Shown here piece by piece: positions 1 to 8,681 of a stretch of 64,000 bases of DNA. The translations under genes were made by a program, and so were the position numbers. The DNA comes from Alphaproteobacteria bacterium PA2 (lineage in GTDB: Bacteria > Pseudomonadota > Alphaproteobacteria > Caulobacterales > Caulobacteraceae), in NCBI GenBank assembly GCA_002256425.1, contig NKIZ01000001.1:1647001-1711000 (forward strand), given 5' to 3'. The notes beneath the pieces are model-generated. The model saw only the letters and a list, made by a program, of their open reading frames with translations. It was not told where the DNA came from and searched no databases. Position 1 is the first letter of the stretch. Every line of letters begins with the position of its first letter.

Positions 1-527
1 CGATTGGCCTCGGCCCGGGTCTGAACGGCAAGCGTCTCGTCCTTGACCAGAACCCGGTCAGAGGCGCGGATCAGGACCATGTGAACCTCCACCCGCACTT
101 CAGGCGCCGCCCTGGCGCCCCGGTCGTAGACCGCCTCGAACCTCTGAACATCCAGGCGCAGGGTGTAGTCCGCCCGGGCAGGCTCACCGCGAATGACCAG
201 GCGGGCCGGTCCCGGACCCGCGTTGAAGGCGCCCAGCAGAGCCTCATTGAACAGGGTTTCAGCCGGTTCGGCCCAACGGGCCTGGGCGACATAGGCCACT
301 TCAGACCCGGTCACGGTGAGGATCCGGTCTCCCGCCGCTGCATGGTTGAAACTGCCGCCAGCCCTGACCACCCCAATCCTTGGCCCCGCAGGGTTTGCGC
401 CCGCGATTTCCGCCTGACGCCCGTCGAAACGGTAGAGCTGCGAGGGCTTGGTCTTCGGAAAGACGGTTATGCAGCCGCTGAGCGCCAGGGCCACGACAAC
501 GACGATGAGTTTCGTGATGTGGTTCAT
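1..527 (-). CDS. ABC-type transport auxiliary lipoprotein (LinN/PqiC-like), partial at left edge
   Basis: Reading from the ATG at 527 down to base 1, the frame stays open and encodes a signal peptide with a lipobox ending LALSGC (Cys19), followed by a domain resembling the ABC_trans_aux family (YRFDGRQ early, then a long beta-rich stretch ending in a segment like ADYTLRLDVQRFEAVY). The C-terminus lies outside the window. Its ATG overlaps the stop of the MCE protein gene (ATGA at 524-527), so it is the last seen gene of the permease-ATPase-MCE-lipoprotein operon. Known family role: outer-membrane-anchored partner of MCE transporters, as LinN in the LinKLMN system. The substrate cannot be told from the sequence. 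Confidence 0.82.
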   Translation of the reverse strand, partial: MNHITKLIVVVVALALSGCITVFPKTKPSQLYRFDGRQAEIAGANPAGPRIGVVRAGGSFNHAAAGDRILTVTGSEVAYVAQARWAEPAETLFNEALLGAFNAGPGPARLVIRGEPARADYTLRLDVQRFEAVYDRGARAAPEVRVEVHMVLIRASDRVLVKDETLAVQTRAEAN

Positions 528-1462
528 GGCCTGACCTCTTTCTCGGCGGCGGGCGACTTGGCCACCAATGCCTGGGGATTTGCCTCCAGTTCCCTGACCA
601 GCCGGTCCAGGGATTGGGCGGTGGATTGCAGGGAACTGACCGCCGCCGTCAGCTGGGGCAGGCCATTGGCGGCGAACTCACTGGTGGGCCCGTCCAGCTT
701 GCCCATCATGCCCCTCAGGTCCTTGGCGGCGCTTTGCGCTTCGATGGCGGCGTCGGCGACGGACTTGAGGCTGCGCTGGCCATCGCCGTCCAGCAGGGTC
801 TGGCCGGCTGAAGAAAGGGCGGTGATCTGCTGGGCGGCGGCGTCGATGCTCTGCAAGGCGGCCTGGGCGTCGCCGAACAGCTGCTTTTTGGCGGCCAGCT
901 CGGCCGTGACGGTCTGGGTGTCATCCAGGGCCTTGCCGAAGGTCTTGATGTTCTGGTCCGAGAGGACCCGATTGACCCGGTCCAGGGCCTCGACGGTCCG
1001 CGCCAGCACAGTGCCACCGCCCTCGAGCAGGTCGGAGAGGGCGCTGCGACGGGACAGGATCAGAGGGATCTTGCCGATGGGCGTCTTGTCCTTCAGCAGG
1101 GGTTGGTTCGGCGAGCCTGCCGAGATCTGGATGAAGCTGACGCCGGTAATGCCCAGGGGTTCGATCGTGGCGTAGGAGTCGGCGCGAACGGGAACATCCG
1201 AACCCATGCGGACGTGGGCTGTCACATTCTTGGGGTCGGCCTTGGCCAGTTCGATCTTGGTGATTTCGCCGACCTTGATCCCGTTAAATCGCACCTCGCC
1301 GCCCTGGCTGAGGCCGTTGATCGGGCCCGGGAAGTTAATGTCATAGAGGTTGAAGTCGCGGTTCAGGCTGATACGCGCCAGCCAGACCGAAAAGATCACG
1401 ACCCCGAAGAACAGCAAAAGGGTCGATAGACCGACAACTGCGTAGTTTGCGTCTTTTTCCAT
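524..1462 (-). CDS. mlaD: MCE (MlaD) family protein of an ABC lipid/solvent transporter
   Basis: A 312-residue protein with a short cytoplasmic N-terminus, one membrane segment at about residues 7-30 (VVGLSTLLLFFGVVIFSVWL), and a single MCE domain at about 38-115, marked by the typical NGLSQGGEVRFNGIKVGEI stretch. The rest is a long alanine-rich helical region (about 130-300), expected for a MlaD-type protein that forms a hexameric ring in the periplasm and carries lipids between membranes. The start overlaps the upstream ATPase stop (ATGA at 1459-1462 region) and its stop overlaps the lipoprotein start. Domain content fits LinM/MlaD. Which lipid or hydrophobic compound is moved is not shown. 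Length and order are normal for the alphaproteobacterial form. Confidence 0.93.
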   Translation of the reverse strand: MEKDANYAVVGLSTLLLFFGVVIFSVWLARISLNRDFNLYDINFPGPINGLSQGGEVRFNGIKVGEITKIELAKADPKNVTAHVRMGSDVPVRADSYATIEPLGITGVSFIQISAGSPNQPLLKDKTPIGKIPLILSRRSALSDLLEGGGTVLARTVEALDRVNRVLSDQNIKTFGKALDDTQTVTAELAAKKQLFGDAQAALQSIDAAAQQITALSSAGQTLLDGDGQRSLKSVADAAIEAQSAAKDLRGMMGKLDGPTSEFAANGLPQLTAAVSSLQSTAQSLDRLVRELEANPQALVAKSPAAEKEVRP

Positions 1463-2247
1463 CAGGCGAGCGTCCTGTGTTTTTGGCCCGCAGCGCGTCC
1501 GCGCGGTCCCAGAAAGTATTCCTGAATCCAGGGATGGTCAGATTGCTCCAGGGTTTCCACCGGAGCGACCTCAACCACCTTCTTGTCAGCCAGCACCGCC
1601 ACGCGGTCGGTGATGGTGTAGAGGCTGTCCAGGTCGTGGGTGATCATGAAGACGGTCAGGGACAGGCTGCGGGACAGGTCCAGGATCATCTCGTCAAAGG
1701 CAGCCGCAGCAATGGGATCCAGTCCCGCCGTTGGCTCATCAAGGAACAGCAGGTCCGGATCCAGCACCAGCGCCCGGGCCAGCCCGACCCGCTTGCGCAT
1801 GCCGCCTGATAGCTCGGAGGGCTTCTGAAGGGCGACGTCGGGGGCCAGGCCAACCAGACCGATCCGCAGGTCGGCCAACTCGTGGATGGTCGAGCGGGAC
1901 AGGTCCGTATGCTCATAGAGGGGGGCGGCGACGTTCTCGCGGACGGTCAGGTTCGAGAACAGGGCGCCCTGCTGGAACAGCACGCCCCAGCGGCGCTCGA
2001 TGTCGCTCCAGCCCTTGCGATTGGCGGTGTGAATATCCTGGCCAAACACCTTGACCTGGCCGCCCTCGGGGCTTTTCAGGCCAATGACCGTATTGAGCAG
2101 GACCGATTTGCCGGTGCCTGACCCGCCGACGACGCCAAGGATTTCTCCTCGCTCCACCGACAGGTTCAGGTGGTCGTGGATACGATGCTCGCCGAACTGC
2201 GACACCAGATCAACGATCTCGATGACTGGATCAGACGCCCCGGTCAC
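1462..2247 (-). CDS. mlaF: ABC transporter ATP-binding protein (MlaF/LinL-like)
   Basis: A 261-residue ABC ATPase with every catalytic motif visible: Walker A GGSGTGKS at 41-48, Q-loop in FQQGALF near 91, signature LSGGM at 146-150, Walker B LLFLDE at 166-171 and the H-loop His204 (MITHD). It powers the MCE transporter encoded on both sides. The start codon is GTG (2245-2247), in a GTGA overlap with the stop of the permease gene; translational coupling is likely. Sequence around the signature (ELSGGMRKRVGLARAL) is typical of the MlaF group rather than of amino-acid or peptide importers. The operon order permease-ATPase-MCE-lipoprotein matches linKLMN of sphingomonads, known there for solvent tolerance and hexachlorocyclohexane use. 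Confidence 0.95.
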   Translation of the reverse strand: MTGASDPVIEIVDLVSQFGEHRIHDHLNLSVERGEILGVVGGSGTGKSVLLNTVIGLKSPEGGQVKVFGQDIHTANRKGWSDIERRWGVLFQQGALFSNLTVRENVAAPLYEHTDLSRSTIHELADLRIGLVGLAPDVALQKPSELSGGMRKRVGLARALVLDPDLLFLDEPTAGLDPIAAAAFDEMILDLSRSLSLTVFMITHDLDSLYTITDRVAVLADKKVVEVAPVETLEQSDHPWIQEYFLGPRGRAAGQKHRTLA

Positions 2248-3359
2248 AGGTCCATCTCCATATAGAGGAGGGCGAACAGGGCATCGATCATGATGATGGC
2301 GAAGGTGGCGTGAACGACGGCGGCGGTCACCCTGCGGCCCAGGGACTCGACATCGCCGCCGACTTCCAGGCCCTGGCGACAGCCTATGCCCGCGATGACG
2401 GCGGCCATGACCGGCGCCTTGGACATGCCGATCCAGAAGTGGGTAGGTCCCACATTGTCGAGGATGCGCTGCAGGAAGAAGGCCGGACCGACCCCAAGGA
2501 TTGACCAGGTGATCAGCAGCCCCCCGAACAGACCGGCCAGGGTTGCGACAAAGGTCAGGAGCGGAACCGTCACCAGCAGCGCGGCGAAACGTGGGAAAAC
2601 CAGGGCCTCGAACGGATCTATGCCCAGCACCAGCATGGCGTCGATTTCCTGGTTCATCTTCATCGAGCCGATTTCAGCGGCGAAGGCGGATGCCGATCGG
2701 CCCGCGAGCAGAATGGCGGCGATGACGATGTTGAATTCCCGCAGGACGGCTATGCCGATCAGGTCCACGGAAAACACCTCGGCGCCAAATTGCCGGAGGG
2801 TGTTGACCCCCAGGAGGCCGACGACAGCGCCAATGAAGAAGGATGTGGTCGCGACAATGGGCACGGCGTCCAGTCCTGCCCGCTCCGCAAGGGAGAAGCA
2901 GGCCGCCCACCGCACCTTCTGGGGCCTGACGATCGAACGACCCAGGACCACCAGCAGGTGGCCCACAAAGACCATGGTGTCGATGAATTCCCGCCACAAC
3001 TCGATCACGCCGCGACCAATGCGGATGGTCATTTCGTGGAAGCCGCGGGGCGGAAGCTTTTCCCTGACCCTGGCGTTGGTGGCCTTGGAGACCAGTTCCA
3101 GCAGTCTTCTGACCTCTGGCCGTCCCTGAGTGGCCGTCAGGTCCAGGCGTTCTCCGGCCGCGCGGATCAGCAGATAGGCGGCCGTCGTGTCCATGCGCTC
3201 GACGCCGGAAAGATCGAGGCTGAAGGGCCCCACCGTGGCCAGGCTTTTGGCCAGGTCCCGGCCGGCATCGTCCACGCCGGAGCCAGACCACTTGCCCGTG
3301 AGGGAGACGGTCGTTCCCTCCGGAGTCTGGTTCACACGGAATTCGGCGGGTTGATCCAT
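2244..3359 (-). CDS. mlaE: MlaE-type permease with N-terminal STAS domain
   Basis: I place the start at the ATG at 3359 (MDQPAEF), giving 371 residues; the open frame runs further upstream but that extension has no domain character. Residues about 10-95 form a STAS-like domain (FSLDLSGVERMDTTAAYLL), which in the gamma-proteobacterial system is a separate protein, MlaB. Residues about 115-365 are the MlaE permease with several membrane segments and the family signature around ILLAGRSASAFAAEIGSMKM. It is the inner-membrane channel of the MCE transporter and the first gene of the operon. A 177-bp gap separates it from a divergent YdcF-like gene, so the promoter should lie there. STAS-MlaE fusions are common in alphaproteobacteria. 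Confidence 0.93.
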   Translation of the reverse strand: MDQPAEFRVNQTPEGTTVSLTGKWSGSGVDDAGRDLAKSLATVGPFSLDLSGVERMDTTAAYLLIRAAGERLDLTATQGRPEVRRLLELVSKATNARVREKLPPRGFHEMTIRIGRGVIELWREFIDTMVFVGHLLVVLGRSIVRPQKVRWAACFSLAERAGLDAVPIVATTSFFIGAVVGLLGVNTLRQFGAEVFSVDLIGIAVLREFNIVIAAILLAGRSASAFAAEIGSMKMNQEIDAMLVLGIDPFEALVFPRFAALLVTVPLLTFVATLAGLFGGLLITWSILGVGPAFFLQRILDNVGPTHFWIGMSKAPVMAAVIAGIGCRQGLEVGGDVESLGRRVTAAVVHATFAIIMIDALFALLYMEMDL

Positions 3360-3536
3360 CAGCTCTTCGGTTTTGCCGCAGGAGGCTCGGGGAGGGGTGC
3401 CGCCCGGGTGAGTCCGGGTCAGGCCAAGGTGTACAGGCTTCTTGGGCCCTCGCCAAAGGTGAAACACGCCTGCGACATTGATGGTTCCTCTTTGCCCGGA
3501 CTGGCGTCATTGGCGCTTCGGCGGCAGACTGCAGCC

Positions 3537-4055
3537 ATGCATTCGGCCATCGTCATACTAGGGGCCGCCGTCCGGCCGGATGGCGCGCCAAGCCCCAGCC
3601 TGCACAGGCGAACCCTGTACGGCCTGGAAGCCGCCCGACGGGCGCCAGACGCGCCGATCTTCTGTTCGGGGGGGCCTGGCAGGCACGGCCCTTCGGAAGC
3701 TTCCGTCATGAGGCGTATCCTCATCTCCGAGGGCGTCCCGCCGGAACGGCTGACCCTGGACGAAGACAGCCGCGATACGCTCCAGAATGTTGTCGCCGCC
3801 GCCCGCTTCATCAGGATCTCTGGCCTGGAAGGCGCTGTCATCTGCACGGACGTCTACCATGCGCCCAGGGTCGCCATGCTGTTCCGGGCGCTTGGGGTTT
3901 CCTCAGAAAGGGGTCCGCTCGCCCGCGGCCGGGGGACGACCTCCCTTGCGCACTGGAGCTTCATGACCCTTCGGGAGGTGGCCGCCTATGCCTATGATTT
4001 TGCGGTAATAATGCACCGGGCCCCTGAGCTTCGAGAGGTTATTTCCCGGGCCTAA
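3537..4055 (+). CDS. YdcF/SanA family protein (DUF218)
   Basis: A 172-residue protein starting at the ATG at 3537 (MHSAIVILGAAV). The open frame extends far upstream but that part is antisense to the permease gene. Visible DUF218 features are the N-terminal strand IVILGAAVRPDG, a SGG turn (FCSGGPGRHG), and the central segment PPERLTLDEDSRDTLQNVVAAARF followed by CTDVYHAPRVAMLF. Members are membrane-associated or cytoplasmic proteins linked to envelope integrity and vancomycin resistance in enterobacteria, but their chemistry is poorly known. No signal peptide is evident. It stands alone, divergent from the MCE operon and about 100 bp before the carrier-protein cluster, so a link with either neighbour is unproven. 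Confidence 0.82.
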   Translation: MHSAIVILGAAVRPDGAPSPSLHRRTLYGLEAARRAPDAPIFCSGGPGRHGPSEASVMRRILISEGVPPERLTLDEDSRDTLQNVVAAARFIRISGLEGAVICTDVYHAPRVAMLFRALGVSSERGPLARGRGTTSLAHWSFMTLREVAAYAYDFAVIMHRAPELREVISRA

Positions 4056-4159: not shown

Positions 4160-4405
4160 ATGAACGAGCAAATTCGGGAAATCGTCGCCAGGCACGGCGG
4201 TCTGGCGGTTGATGTCGCCGGTCTGGACGAAGCGGCGGATCTTTATGAAGCGGGCATGACCTCTTTTGCTTCAGTCGACCTGATGCTGGGGCTTGAAGAG
4301 GCTTTCGACATCGAATTCCCTGACGCCCTGCTGACCCGCAAGACCTTCGCCTCGATCAGTTCCATCGCCGAGGCCGTGACCAAGCTCAGCGCCAAGGCGG
4401 CTTGA
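4160..4405 (+). CDS. Acyl-carrier-protein-like protein, partner of the aminoacyl:CP ligase
   Basis: An 81-residue protein with the four-helix carrier-protein pattern. The phosphopantetheine attachment site is read as Ser35 in [13 protein letters not shown]; the usual DSL is replaced by TSF, as expected for the specialised carrier proteins that pair with aminoacyl:carrier-protein ligases. The helix after the site ([16 protein letters not shown]) is acidic, which is normal. It lies only 4 nt before the ligase gene, so the two are almost certainly co-translated. Known from Bradyrhizobium and Agrobacterium relatives: the holo-carrier protein receives glycine or alanine as a thioester. The final acceptor of that amino acid is not known to me. 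It is not the housekeeping fatty-acid ACP, judging from its motif and context. Confidence 0.88.
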
Positions 4406-4409
4406 TCCC

Positions 4410-5318
4410 ATGACCGATCAGCCCAGCTTCCTGCAGCAACTGTTTGATCGGGGATATCTGATCCCTTCCGGTGTTCCGGGGCTGTTCGGACGTGGCGAAG
4501 TCTATGAGTCGGTCATATCCGCTTTTGACGGCCTGATTTCCCGCGTGGTCAAGGACGACAGGGCCGAGAAGATTTCCTTCCCGCCCGGCATGAACCGGAC
4601 CCAGTTCGAGAAGAGCGGCTATCTCAAGAGTTTCCCCCAGCTGGCCGGGGCGGTTCACAGCTTCTGCGGCAACGACCACGACCATGGCGAACTCCTTCGG
4701 GAACTGGATGAAGGCGGCGACTGGACCAAGGGCCTGGCCTGTACGGACGTCGCCCTGACGCCGGCCACCTGTTATCCGGTCTATCCGGTCATGGCGGCCA
4801 GAGGCCCCCTGCCGGAAGGCGGCCGGGTGTTTGACCTGCAATCCTATTGTTTCCGGCACGAGCCTTCGGAAGATCCTGCACGCATGCAGATGTTCCGGAT
4901 CCGGGAGTTTGTGCGGGCTGGAACCCAGGACGAGGTGCTGGCCTTCCGCGAGACCTGGCTGAAGCGTGGCCGGGAAATGATGGGCGCCGTCGGACTGCCC
5001 CTCGACATCGATCTGGCCAATGACCCCTTCTTCGGCCGGGGCGGACGGCTGATGCGGGCCGGACAAAGGGAGCAGGAACTTAAGTTCGAGCTGCTGGTCC
5101 AGATCGCCAATCCGGCCGGGCCGACGGCGATCATGAGCTTCAACTATCACCAGGAACACTTCGGCGAGACCTGGGGCATCCATACCGCCGACGGCGGTGT
5201 CGCCCAGACGGCCTGCACGGGGTTCGGTATGGACCGCATCGCCCTGGCATTGCTGAAGCATCACGGCCTCGACCTCGACGCCTGGCCGAAGTCGGTGCGC
5301 GACACCCTCTGGGGCTGA
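4410..5318 (+). CDS. Amino acid--[acyl-carrier-protein] ligase (truncated seryl-tRNA synthetase homologue)
   Basis: A 302-residue class II synthetase-like catalytic core without a tRNA-binding arm. Motif 2 is visible in [23 protein letters not shown] and motif 3 in [13 protein letters not shown]. Three probable zinc ligands are Cys121, Glu166 and Cys269. Their spacing equals that of the Cys131/Glu176/Cys279 set I recall for Bradyrhizobium Bll0957, each shifted by exactly ten residues. The family activates a small amino acid with ATP and loads it onto a carrier protein instead of tRNA. The gene sits between the carrier-protein gene (4 nt) and a DUF1839 gene (5 nt). Whether this one prefers glycine or alanine cannot be told by eye. 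Confidence 0.92.
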
Positions 5319-5323
5319 TCCCC

Positions 5324-6286
5324 ATGGCGGCGCGCTTCCCAGGCCTGGACCCGGCGACCTATCAGCGCCACTCCATGCACGCCCTCGAGCGGGCCTGGCC
5401 GGAAAGCAATTGCTATTCAGACCTCTGGGTCGAACTCCTGCACGCCTATGGCGTCGGGCCGCAGGGCATATTCGGATCTGCGGTCACCCAGGACTATGAG
5501 GGTGACCAGTTCACCTTCACCAAACCCCTGCTGGAAGACATCGAGCGCCTGCACGGCCTGCAGGTCCAGGAACTCGCCATCTATGATGATCTGGCGGTTC
5601 ACATTGACCGGCAACTCGCCCAGGGACGACTGAGCATTGTCGAGGTCGACAGCTATTTCCTGCCTGACACCCGGGGGCTCACTTACAGACTGGCCCACGG
5701 CAAGACATCGGTGATCTTCAACCACCTGGACATCGAGGCCCGGCGGGCGGGCTATTTCCATGGTCCGGGTTATCACAGCCTGGAGGGTGAGGACTTCGAG
5801 GGAGTGTTCCAGGGGTATGGCGACGGGGTCACGCCCTTCCTGCCCTATGTGGAGTTCATCAAGGAGCCAGCAGGCGGCGCCAGGCCAGCCGATCGCACAG
5901 AAGCCGGGCTTCTCCTGCAACGGCATCTGGCCCGGCGTCCGGTCTCCAATCCCCTGAAGCGGTTCCAGGCGGATTTTCCGACCCAGGCCGAAGCAGTGTC
6001 CCGGCGGGAGCCGGCCTTCTTCCATCTCTATGCCTTCAACACCCTGCGCCAGTTCGGCGCGAACTTCCTGTTGCTCAGCGACCATCTGGCCTGGCTGGAT
6101 CCGGAAGCCGCGGGCGTGGCGCCTGCGGACGTGATCGCTCAGACGGCCAAGGCCTGCCAGTTCCAGCTGGCCCGGGCCTGCGCCCGCAAGAAGTTCGATA
6201 CCCTGGCCGGGGCCCTGGAGCCTGCGGTTGAGGCCTGGGATCAGCTCATGGCCGACCTCGACTCCCGGTGGGGCAGGGCGGCCTGA
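5324..6286 (+). CDS. DUF1839 family protein, probable downstream partner of the aminoacyl carrier protein
   Basis: A 320-residue protein that I recognise as DUF1839 from its N-terminal region (YQRHSMHALERAWPESNCYSDLWVELL) and from VDSYFLPDTRGLTYRLAHGKTSVIFNHLD. No signal peptide or membrane segment is seen. The segment at about 100-115 holds conserved-looking Asp, Ser, Tyr and Phe residues and resembles a papain-like or transferase active-site region, but I cannot assign catalysis. From memory, DUF1839 genes are found beside aminoacyl:carrier-protein ligases in alphaproteobacteria, so the best inference is an enzyme that takes the aminoacyl group from the carrier protein and passes it to an acceptor. 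It is flanked by 5-nt and 4-nt gaps within one operon. Confidence 0.85.
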   Translation: MAARFPGLDPATYQRHSMHALERAWPESNCYSDLWVELLHAYGVGPQGIFGSAVTQDYEGDQFTFTKPLLEDIERLHGLQVQELAIYDDLAVHIDRQLAQGRLSIVEVDSYFLPDTRGLTYRLAHGKTSVIFNHLDIEARRAGYFHGPGYHSLEGEDFEGVFQGYGDGVTPFLPYVEFIKEPAGGARPADRTEAGLLLQRHLARRPVSNPLKRFQADFPTQAEAVSRREPAFFHLYAFNTLRQFGANFLLLSDHLAWLDPEAAGVAPADVIAQTAKACQFQLARACARKKFDTLAGALEPAVEAWDQLMADLDSRWGRAA

Positions 6287-6290
6287 ATTC

Positions 6291-8681
6291 ATGGCCCGCA
6301 TCAACAGCATGACGGGCCAGACCCGGTCGCCGCTTTCCGAAGGCTGGACCCTGGCCCTGACAGAGGCCGGAGCATGCCCGGATCCCTCAGCGGCCTCACG
6401 ACGGGTTGACTGGATCCCCGCCCGGGCGCCGGGAACTACTGCCGGGGCCTTGCGGGATGCAGGTCGATCCTTTGACCGATTGACGGAGCAGGATGTCTGG
6501 TGGCGGCGCGATGTGGACCTGTCTGGTCCCGGAAGCCTGAGGTTTGAGGGGCTGGCCGGTCTTGCCGAGGTCTGGCTGGACGGCAAGCTGGTCCTCACTT
6601 CAACCTCCATGTTCCTGGCCCATGAGGTCGAACTTCCTCCTGAGGGGGTGAAGACCCTCTGGCTGGCCTTCCGGGCCATGGCGCCACACCTGGAGCGCAA
6701 ACTTCCGAGGGCCCGCTGGCGCCCTCGGATGATCGACCATCAGGGCCTGCGCGGGGTGCGAACGTCCCTGATCGGCCATGTGCCTGGATGGAGTCCGGTC
6801 TTCGAAACCATCGGCCCCTGGCGACCGATCGTGGCTCTCGGTCGGCCGACGCTCAGGATCGAAAACCTCGACATCAAGACGGGATATGATGGGGGACGGG
6901 CGTGGATCTCAGCGGAGATCGCGGGCGTCGATATTTCCTCTGCTCCGGTCCTGGTCTGTGATGAGCGAAGGCTGGCTCTGACGTCCATGGGCGCCGGGCG
7001 GTATGCGGGCCGCATGGCCCTGTCCGGCGTTCGTCCCTGGTGGCCGCATACCCATGGGGACCAACCTCTCTATCCCGTCAAGCTTCAGGTCGGCGACACC
7101 ATCCTTGATCTGGTGCGCACCGGCTTTCGCGACATCGCTGTGGACAGGGGCGAAGACGGGCAGGGGTTCCAGCTTCGCATCAACGGTGTTCCGGTCTTCG
7201 CCCGCGGCGCCGTCTGGACCAGTTCAGATCCCGTCGGCCGGTCCTGTGACCGGGATCATTACGCCCCCCTGATCGCCCGGGCCAAGGCGGCCGGAATGAA
7301 CATGCTGCGGCTGAGCGGAACCGGCGCCTATGAGGGCCGGGCCTTCCATGACCTGTGCGATGAGCTGGGGATACTGGTCTGGCAGGATTTCATGTTCGCC
7401 AATTTCGACTATCCGGCTTCCGATCCTGACTTCGCCCGGGAGGTCGATCTTGAACTGGCCCAGGTGCTGTCTGACCGTCAGCTCTCGCCTTCACTTGCCG
7501 TGATCTGCGGCGGCAGCGAGGTGCACCAGCAGGCGGCGATGATGGGGCTTAGGGAAGAAAACTACGCCAGCCATCTGTTTGACGAGATCATGCCCAGGGC
7601 GGCGGCCCTGTGGCGGCCGGATGTTCCCTTTGTCCCCAACTCCCCCAGCGGCGGCGCCTTGCCTTTCGTGGTCGACAGCGGCGTGGGGCACTATTACGGG
7701 GTCGGCGCCTATCTGCGGCCCCTTGAGGATGCCCGCCGGGCCAATGTGCGGTTTGCCTCCGAGTGCCTGGCCTTCGCCAATCTGCCAGACGGCCCGGTGA
7801 CGGATCGGGGCCTTGGGGTTCCCAGAGATCTGGGCGCCGACTGGGATTTCGCAGATGTCCGGGATTACTATCTGGGAAGGCTCTATGGAGAAGACCCCGC
7901 CGGGCTGCTGGCCCGGGATCCAGTCCTCTACGCCGATTTATGCAATGCAGCTGTATCGGAAATCATGGAGGCGACCTTCGCCGAGTGGCGACGTCCCGCT
8001 TCCGCGTGCGGCGGCGGCCTGGTCTGGACCTTCCAGGATCTGGAGCCCGGGGCCGGGTGGGGCGTTCTGGATTGCAATGGGCGGCCGAAGGCGGTCTGGT
8101 ATGCCCTGAAGCGCGCCTTCCGGCCGATCCAGCTGACCCTGACAGACGAGGGCGTCAATGGTCTGGCCGTGCACGTCCTCAATGAAACAAACAGGTCCCG
8201 TACTCTGGTTCTGGAGTTCACCTGCCTGCGGGATGGGGCGACGCCGGTTCTGTCTGTCACCCACGACATCGAAGCGCCGGCGCACAGTGGCCAGACCCTG
8301 TCGGCCTTCGCCCTGATCGGCCGGTTTTTCGACCTGACCTATGCTTACAGGTTCGGCCCGCCGGGCCATGACGTCTCCATCGCCCGGTTGCGGGGCGAGG
8401 ATGGCGAGGTGCTGGCAGAGGCCTTCCACTTCCCTGGAGAGCGCCTTCGGACACCCGATGATGTGCAATTGACGGCCTCGCTCGATGGCCATGTCCTGCG
8501 GCTCGCCTCGCAGAAATTCCTGCCGTCGCTGCGCGTTGAAGCGCCAGGTTTTGAGCCCTCTGACAACGGGTTTCATCTGGCGCCGGGCATAGAGAAAGTG
8601 GTCCGCCTGACCGGTCCTGGGAACAGGGTTCCAGCGGGCAGGGTGCTCGCCCCCGGCGGCAGGATTGTCGCCGAGTTCTGA
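6291..8681 (+). CDS. Glycoside hydrolase family 2, beta-mannosidase-like
   Basis: A 796-residue protein starting at the ATG at 6291, 4 nt after the DUF1839 gene. It has the GH2 layout: a sugar-binding jelly-roll (about 20-170, with WWRRDVDLSGPGSLRFEGL and AEVWLDGKLV), an Ig-like domain, a TIM barrel (about 270-600) and C-terminal beta domains. The beta-mannosidase-type tail WTFQDLEPGAGWGVLDCNGR is clear. The nucleophile is probably Glu491 (FASECLAF) and the acid/base Glu410. The residue before Glu410 is Ser, whereas most GH2 enzymes have Asn there (GNNE). No signal peptide is visible, so it is likely cytoplasmic. Its place in the aminoacyl carrier operon suggests a glycan or glycoside intermediate; the true substrate is unknown. 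Confidence 0.87.
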   Translation: MARINSMTGQTRSPLSEGWTLALTEAGACPDPSAASRRVDWIPARAPGTTAGALRDAGRSFDRLTEQDVWWRRDVDLSGPGSLRFEGLAGLAEVWLDGKLVLTSTSMFLAHEVELPPEGVKTLWLAFRAMAPHLERKLPRARWRPRMIDHQGLRGVRTSLIGHVPGWSPVFETIGPWRPIVALGRPTLRIENLDIKTGYDGGRAWISAEIAGVDISSAPVLVCDERRLALTSMGAGRYAGRMALSGVRPWWPHTHGDQPLYPVKLQVGDTILDLVRTGFRDIAVDRGEDGQGFQLRINGVPVFARGAVWTSSDPVGRSCDRDHYAPLIARAKAAGMNMLRLSGTGAYEGRAFHDLCDELGILVWQDFMFANFDYPASDPDFAREVDLELAQVLSDRQLSPSLAVICGGSEVHQQAAMMGLREENYASHLFDEIMPRAAALWRPDVPFVPNSPSGGALPFVVDSGVGHYYGVGAYLRPLEDARRANVRFASECLAFANLPDGPVTDRGLGVPRDLGADWDFADVRDYYLGRLYGEDPAGLLARDPVLYADLCNAAVSEIMEATFAEWRRPASACGGGLVWTFQDLEPGAGWGVLDCNGRPKAVWYALKRAFRPIQLTLTDEGVNGLAVHVLNETNRSRTLVLEFTCLRDGATPVLSVTHDIEAPAHSGQTLSAFALIGRFFDLTYAYRFGPPGHDVSIARLRGEDGEVLAEAFHFPGERLRTPDDVQLTASLDGHVLRLASQKFLPSLRVEAPGFEPSDNGFHLAPGIEKVVRLTGPGNRVPAGRVLAPGGRIVAEF

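Follow-up and report, generated by a model that had tools for sequence, protein, structure and literature searches.

Within 64,000 nucleotides of the genome of Alphaproteobacteria bacterium PA2 (GenBank GCA_002256425.1, contig NKIZ01000001.1, positions 1,647,001 to 1,711,000 of the forward strand; this entire stretch is termed the window), four tightly spaced genes code for a carrier protein (CP), an amino acid--[carrier-protein] ligase, a DUF1839 protein and a GH2 glycosidase. We consider it rather probable that they serve to N-aminoacylate an amino sugar which is destined for an exported glycan, with the acceptor and the amino acid as predictions. The evidence comes from the fold of DUF1839, from the conserved association of the genes and from a detached set of partner genes in a polysaccharide-export locus of the same genome.

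The modelled fold of DUF1839 matches that of the amide synthase CcbD

The DUF1839 gene (5324..6286, + strand) encodes a protein of 320 amino acids which matched PF08893 with 349.3 bits (gathering cut-off 22.5). We propose that it is a CP-dependent amide synthase with a papain-like fold. A sequence search against solved structures yielded no significant match; therefore, the link to CcbD rests on the fold. The AlphaFold2 model had a pLDDT of 92.6 and a pTM of 0.91. Among the matches listed by Foldseek and VIA-align, its only whole-length relatives were CcbD (Z scores 17.6-18.1 over 283-286 residues), CtaG (16.9-17.7) and a subunit of AziU2-U3 (17.4); the next row scored 7.4. The whole-length matches span 275-286 residues and cover the papain-like domain as well as the C-terminal helical part. 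BtrH was not among the fold matches listed, which has no bearing on its kinship. As far as literature searches show, the link of DUF1839 to the CcbD/CtaG fold is new, and it narrows the question to which amine DUF1839 acylates.

In the model C30 is located at the start of helix 30-41, T128 on strand 127-136 and H146 on strand 141-146. We aligned the 65 of 111 matches which remained after a similarity filter. C30 was present in 63/65, T128 in 62/65 (with two Ser and one Ala in the remainder) and H146 in all 65. A basic stretch near the C-terminus was equally kept (R284 in 65/65, R288 in 62/65). A published survey (PMC10318531) counts DUF1839 among the papain-like superfamily, gives its active site as C(T/S)H and guesses at glycan processing. 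T128 and H146 fit this order as far as the succession in the sequence is concerned, not its geometry. The two deviations from C30, R or Q, occur in the operon copies L117 and L125. Their host genomes, G681 and G613, possess a second DUF1839 copy; thus, to judge from the sequences, the lone copy may have taken over catalysis there. Possibly, a catalytic and a non-catalytic protein form a pair in such genomes. Two DUF1839 copies are also present on the Cupriavidus plasmid L110, the operon copy of which is outside the alignment.

According to PMC12945683, CcbD works by a ping-pong mechanism via Cys-His-Glu in which the Cys first accepts CP-bound proline and a thiooctose then receives it at its amino group; Arg312, 316, 323 and 324 bind the CP. 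From the modelled fold and the conserved residues we conclude that DUF1839 would work like CcbD, as a candidate member of the amide synthases of the CcbD/LmbD/CtaG type.

Conservation of the module

The CP gene (4160..4405) encodes 81 amino acids and matched PF00550 (33.1 bits, cut-off 20.8) and NF005480 (108.5 bits, cut-off 72). Its likely phosphopantetheine site, assigned by eye, is Ser35 in AGMTSFASV. The SerRS-like ligase of type 1 (4410..5318, 302 amino acids) matched NF005479 with 479.2 bits (cut-off 357). The GH2 gene (6291..8681) encodes 796 amino acids from its ATG, ahead of which the mechanical open reading frame begins with a TTG at 6228; it matched PF22666 with 37.4 bits (cut-off 27). 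All four genes are on the + strand. An earlier note, made from the letters of the window, had described this cluster with intergenic distances of 4, 5 and 4 nt; the reading frames agreed exactly, and the family matches confirmed the four proteins.

A scan of a genome collection returned at least 583 stretches which encode DUF1839 relatives, of which the best 80, mostly from Rhizobiales, were kept. A second, broader set consisted of the window and 28 loci from plasmids and genomes (L103-L130; n = 29). With profiles we looked for module proteins up to 7 kb away from DUF1839 and on its strand. In the set of 80 loci GH2 was found in all, the ligase in 79 (missing in L012), the CP in 78 (L039, L066) and the flavoprotein in 78 (L007, L039). 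The respective numbers in the second set were 26/29 for GH2, 27/29 for the ligase, 27/29 for the CP and 26/29 for the flavoprotein. All four were missing in L110 and L116, where the copy counted is a lone DUF1839; further misses were GH2 in L103 and the flavoprotein in the window. L106 and L111 are near duplicates. The earlier note had named a lack of association between GH2 and the ligase-carrier pair in other genomes as the finding which would speak against it; GH2 is conserved beside DUF1839, and the objection falls. The conserved neighbourhood also ruled out a chance adjacency of the four genes.

The flavoprotein, acyl-CoA-dehydrogenase-like, is the usual fifth gene of the module and is located between CP and ligase. 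The order CP, flavoprotein, ligase, DUF1839, GH2 is kept across alpha- and betaproteobacteria. Five annotated plasmid records (two from Azospirillum and one each from Mycetohabitans, Caballeronia and R. leguminosarum) list CP, acyl-CoA dehydrogenase family protein, amino acid--[ACP] ligase, DUF1839 and GH2 in this order, followed in 3/5 by an alpha/beta hydrolase. In L110, L111, L112 and L115, plasmid records without annotation at this place, the gene order was derived from profiles. The R. leguminosarum record, a conjugative plasmid (L113), carries the complete five-gene cassette with annotated transposase genes some kb off on either side; the cassette is possibly mobile.

DUF1839 is uncommon. 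It was present in 5/385 genomes of the class, 4/249 of the family and 16/398 of a phylum sample. In the latter the ligase exceeded its cut-off in 16/16 genomes with DUF1839 compared to 12/382 others, i.e. in 28 genomes in total; another 16 which matched the ligase model below cut-off are outside this number. In 49/81 loci each, EpmA- and EpmB-like genes were recognised by eye, e.g. at L064:4529-7357 in Rhizobium, where the module is beside EF-P-, EpmA- and EpmB-like genes. These counts stem from the rhizobia-heavy set only (clusters c6 and c7). We treat this neighbourhood as probable local synteny and not as a link to EF-P/EpmA/EpmB.

Two types of ligase loci

In this enzyme family it is established that the ligase charges a CP with an amino acid. 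The residues C121, E166 and C269, which according to the earlier note are kept in the window ligase, were invariant in 38/38 module ligases (38 of 106 matches were aligned after a similarity filter) and are kept in Bll0957 (PDB 4h2w), to which the window ligase aligned with 311 bits. We take them to be zinc ligands, as reportedly in Bll0957. The window ligase is the only match to the ligase in its own genome.

Seven of the 12 ligase-positive genomes without DUF1839 were inspected (L182-L188). Flavoprotein and ligase were together in 7/7, a recognisable CP was beside them in 6/7, and DUF1839 or GH2 were nearby in 0/7. The L183 ligase matched Bll0957 (PDB 3mey) along its entire length with 710 bits and is 49% identical to the window ligase. 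In the ligase tree the two types are apart with 100/100 support. Therefore, the solved enzyme Bll0957 represents the type without DUF1839. Because it belongs to this sister type, its chemistry does not show the product of the window type. The ligase-carrier reaction, called known in the earlier note, is established for the family; the characterised enzyme belongs to the type with neither DUF1839 nor GH2 nearby. The activity of Bll0957 and Atu2573 is reported second-hand in PMC9437257. CP-loading by this ligase family has been known since 2010; a proven acceptor was not found in the literature searched. As far as literature searches show, the distinction of two ligase types is new. The Bll0957-type loci contain a Wzc-like gene in 3/7 cases (L186-L188), and in L183 and L184 GNAT-like genes were seen by eye, possibly alternative transferases.

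Ligase and flavoprotein evidently do without a DUF1839 nearby; thus DUF1839 is not needed for loading. This, together with the papain-like fold, would suit a hydrolase which unloads wrongly charged aminoacyl-CP, an editing thioesterase, with the true acceptor enzyme encoded elsewhere. We regard such a role as improbable because the whole-length fold relatives CcbD, which forms an amide, CtaG and AziU2-U3 are biosynthetic and because DUF1839 travels with a glycosidase.

The detached half of the module

Loss of the flavoprotein, which is absent from its usual place in the window, could be ruled out. A close homologue, 44% identical to the Azospirillum module enzyme, is encoded at C1:2964365-2965462. 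It is adjacent to a two-domain alpha/beta hydrolase (C1:2965554-2967125) which is 30% identical to the module hydrolase. Both are located 1.31 Mb from the window cluster (C1:1651160-1655681, compared to 2964299-2967185 for the detached half); the four genes of the earlier note are therefore not the whole system. The absence of the flavoprotein between CP and ligase might also be read as a sign that the window cluster is a decayed remnant devoid of function. This is most improbable: the frames of all four genes are open, none of the residues checked has been lost, the genome still has flavoprotein and hydrolase at another place, and the order CP, ligase, DUF1839, GH2 with the CP directly before the ligase is also present in a relative, an uncultured Phenylobacterium (L007; metagenome-assembled genome, contig of 3.7 kb).

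Flavoprotein and hydrolase are followed by genes for a GH10 protein, a chain-length-determinant-like protein (below cut-off), Wza-type export, a flippase-like protein (by eye), Wzy_C, a polyprenyl sugar-phosphate transferase (Bac_transf) and a GT2. Further along the same locus are a heptose-phosphatase-like gene (below cut-off), two GHMP kinases and a nucleotidyltransferase. In G854, a related genome, we found Wza, Wzc-like, GH10, hydrolase and flavoprotein followed by divergent CP, ligase, DUF1839 and GH2. Compared with both halves in the window genome, order and relative orientation are equal and the break falls between flavoprotein and CP. The flavoproteins of the two genomes are 61% identical and sisters with 100/100 support. 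A flavoprotein homologue (E <= 1e-30) was present in 4/4 genomes of the family with DUF1839 and in 0/6 hand-picked genomes of the same genus without it. Of the remaining three genomes in the family with DUF1839, two (G881, G965) still have the flavoprotein between CP and ligase. The split thus names a specific polysaccharide-export locus as the likely place of the product. A split locus which ties the pathway to one polysaccharide locus is new, as far as literature searches show.

Because both locus types have the flavoprotein together with the ligase, its substrate is probably the carrier-bound amino acid and not a sugar; its sequence is compatible with either role. In a PDB search the best row was a short-chain acyl-CoA dehydrogenase, and 3m9v/4kcf (KijD3), DnmZ and a nitrososynthase ranked beside the dehydrogenases. 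The consensus RDAHSAPLMISNDR has, by eye, no Glu at the Glu376-type catalytic position.

The two-domain hydrolase (L139:10507-12186 and other loci) resembles the exosortase-A-system hydrolases 1 and 2, below cut-off. Its first domain looks degenerate by eye. The second has a GxCxG with Cys at the nucleophile elbow in seven singly listed copies; a pattern of the GxCxG type was found in 25/80 hydrolase copies and none in 50. At L064:14755-18066 one predicted open reading frame fuses the hydrolase to a flippase-like domain, with Polysacc_synt_3 and Hydrolase_4 above cut-off and a second hydrolase match below.

The GH2 protein carries a Ser-Glu pair

The nearest solved relatives of GH2 are beta-mannosidases, including BtMan2A (2vjx/2je8), and with the PF22666 match this bears out the earlier description of the protein as beta-mannosidase-like. 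A similarity filter kept 57 of 103 sequences, 39 of which were aligned. E410 and E491 were invariant (39/39 each) and aligned with the Glu pair of BtMan2A; by the assignment in BtMan2A, they presumably are acid/base and nucleophile, respectively. In clan GH-A an Asn before the acid/base contacts the 2-hydroxyl of the sugar. The Asn which marks a GH2 beta-mannosidase, NNE in BtMan2A, is replaced in the module proteins by Ser409 in 38/39; one of the 39 has Asn. As far as literature searches show, a GH2 with Ser-Glu is new. The exchange suggests, as a matter of sequence, a substrate altered at C2, e.g. an amino sugar. By eye no signal peptide was visible in the window protein, and GH2 is therefore probably cytoplasmic.

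Glycan context and a proposed route

Polysaccharide genes were near 9/19 DUF1839 loci compared to 0/19 control windows of the same genomes; part of the training sequences of the profiles came from rhizobial loci and from the window genome itself, and the control windows were hand-picked. After removal of six loci of one rhizobial-type family which is close to the training sequences (L118-L122, L124) the ratio was 6/13 versus 0/13.

The data are consistent with the following route. The ligase would activate a small amino acid and load the phosphopantetheine arm of the CP, the step which is established for the family. The flavoprotein, relocated by 1.31 Mb here, probably modifies the CP-bound amino acid. 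Cys30 of DUF1839 would then take over the aminoacyl group and hand it on to an amino sugar, the amino group of which would become an amide as in the CcbD reaction. The acceptor most likely would be a cytoplasmic sugar nucleotide or a lipid-linked repeat unit of an exported polysaccharide. GH2, as a cytoplasmic enzyme, might cleave a glycoside of this sugar, either in editing or in release, and the two-domain hydrolase of the detached half might act late in the same pathway. In its most specific form, the proposal is that a SerRS-derived ligase, a CP, a flavin oxidase acting on the CP and an amide synthase of the CcbD type constitute a dedicated route by which an amino sugar of an exported polysaccharide receives an oxidised amino acid at its amino group, with a Ser-Glu GH2 specific for this modified sugar and with the route split over two distant loci in the window species. 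We put this forward tentatively, as a possibility which may well turn out otherwise. Should the transfer to an amino sugar hold true in general, it would be an enzymatic route to aminoacyl amides on amino sugars of the bacterial surface, with rhizobia and Azospirillum as a genetic system.

Several points weigh against N-aminoacylation of an amino sugar for export. Acceptor, amino acid and product are predicted from genes and fold. DUF1839 does not have the ordinary Cys-His-Glu order; the model in PMC10318531 has Thr/Ser at the His site. Concerning the split, a long branch unites the relocated flavoprotein with that of G854 (0.97), the outgroups are too long to root the tree, and the enzyme may have changed its function. 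The G854 ligase is not the sister of the window ligase in the tree (an open fork), which speaks against a simple split. Finally, the profiles detected no polysaccharide gene up to about 9 kb from 10/19 loci, the window included, and the five-gene cassette of R. leguminosarum resides on a conjugative plasmid without polysaccharide genes. Therefore, the link to glycans is only partial.

The plasmid cassette would fit another use of the same chemistry, the production of a diffusible small molecule such as an aminoacylated amino-sugar metabolite or a siderophore-like compound. GH2 would then free an active aglycone, and the polysaccharide genes would be bystanders. DUF1839 is carried by plasmids of several genera (59 records), and the fold relatives CcbD, CtaG and AziU2-U3 stem from antibiotic pathways. 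Yet beyond the core, no exporter or regulator common to the loci inspected was recognised by eye, polysaccharide genes accompany 9/19 loci and none of the control windows, and the detached half is situated in an export locus. A small molecule is a conceivable, rather unlikely product. The reading which we prefer is the aminoacylation of an amino sugar that becomes part of an exported glycan.

Flanking genes

Upstream of the cluster the window contains, on the - strand, an MCE/Mla-type transporter set of MCE/MlaD, ATPase and MlaE permease (524-3467) and, on the + strand, a DUF218 (ElyC/SanA-like) gene (3537-4055) which ends 104 nt before the CP start. A DUF218-like gene is also upstream of the cluster in L007 (422-937). 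Because of the 104-nt gap and the similar gene in L007, the DUF218 gene may be co-transcribed with the cluster. Downstream, ribokinase-like and nucleoside-hydrolase genes are located on the opposite strand. A foreign origin or unusual composition of the cluster was discarded since the GC content of 0.617-0.663 over 4-10 kb was nothing special.

Comparison with known systems

The ligases and transferases of DltABCD and AlmEFG belong to other families than those described here. The principle is similar: an adenylating ligase charges a CP with an amino acid which then reaches a surface glycan or lipid (PMC12930378, where the tests concern DltA and AlmE and not the present ligase). Bll0957 (PDB 3mey, 4h2w) is from the same amino acid:CP ligase family as the window ligase. 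The Bll0957-like locus L183 has CP, flavoprotein and ligase but lacks DUF1839 and GH2.

CtaG from closthioamide biosynthesis shares the whole-length fold with DUF1839, but has other substrates; its PDB entries name the variants C11A, H128A and D144N and the ligand PHBA. Among the lincosamide amide synthases CcbD and LmbD, CcbD is alike over its whole length, with a conserved Cys at a helix start, a CP as donor and an amino sugar as acceptor. The basic stretch of DUF1839 near the C-terminus, with R284 and R288, may by sequence correspond to the CP-binding arginines of CcbD. In contrast, the identity is about 13%, DUF1839 has Thr/Ser at the usual place of the His in the published model, and the donor is charged by an NRPS adenylation domain there and by a SerRS-like ligase here.

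Experimental work on the acceptor, or literature which links a carrier-protein ligase with exopolysaccharide, was not found in the literature searched, which leaves out most subscription journals. The suggestion of the earlier note, a system for the aminoacylation of a sugar compound, gained support as to the sugar acceptor from the CcbD match and the nearby polysaccharide genes; the acceptor stays a prediction and the idea as such is not new. A note added in proof in 2010 reported the same neighbourhood and predicted that an amide joins an amino acid with a sugar of the surface (PMC2922099). This system of a SerRS paralogue has an ACP, a ligase, a redox enzyme, a conserved open reading frame (Atu2574) and a glycosidase in common with the module. 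We take Atu2574 to be DUF1839 because DUF1839 follows the ligase in the Agrobacterium loci L024 and L084. Unlike the present analysis, the 2010 report contains no data on fold or residues, and the window differs from the system described there in that its locus is in two parts and the redox enzyme is encoded far away from the ligase.

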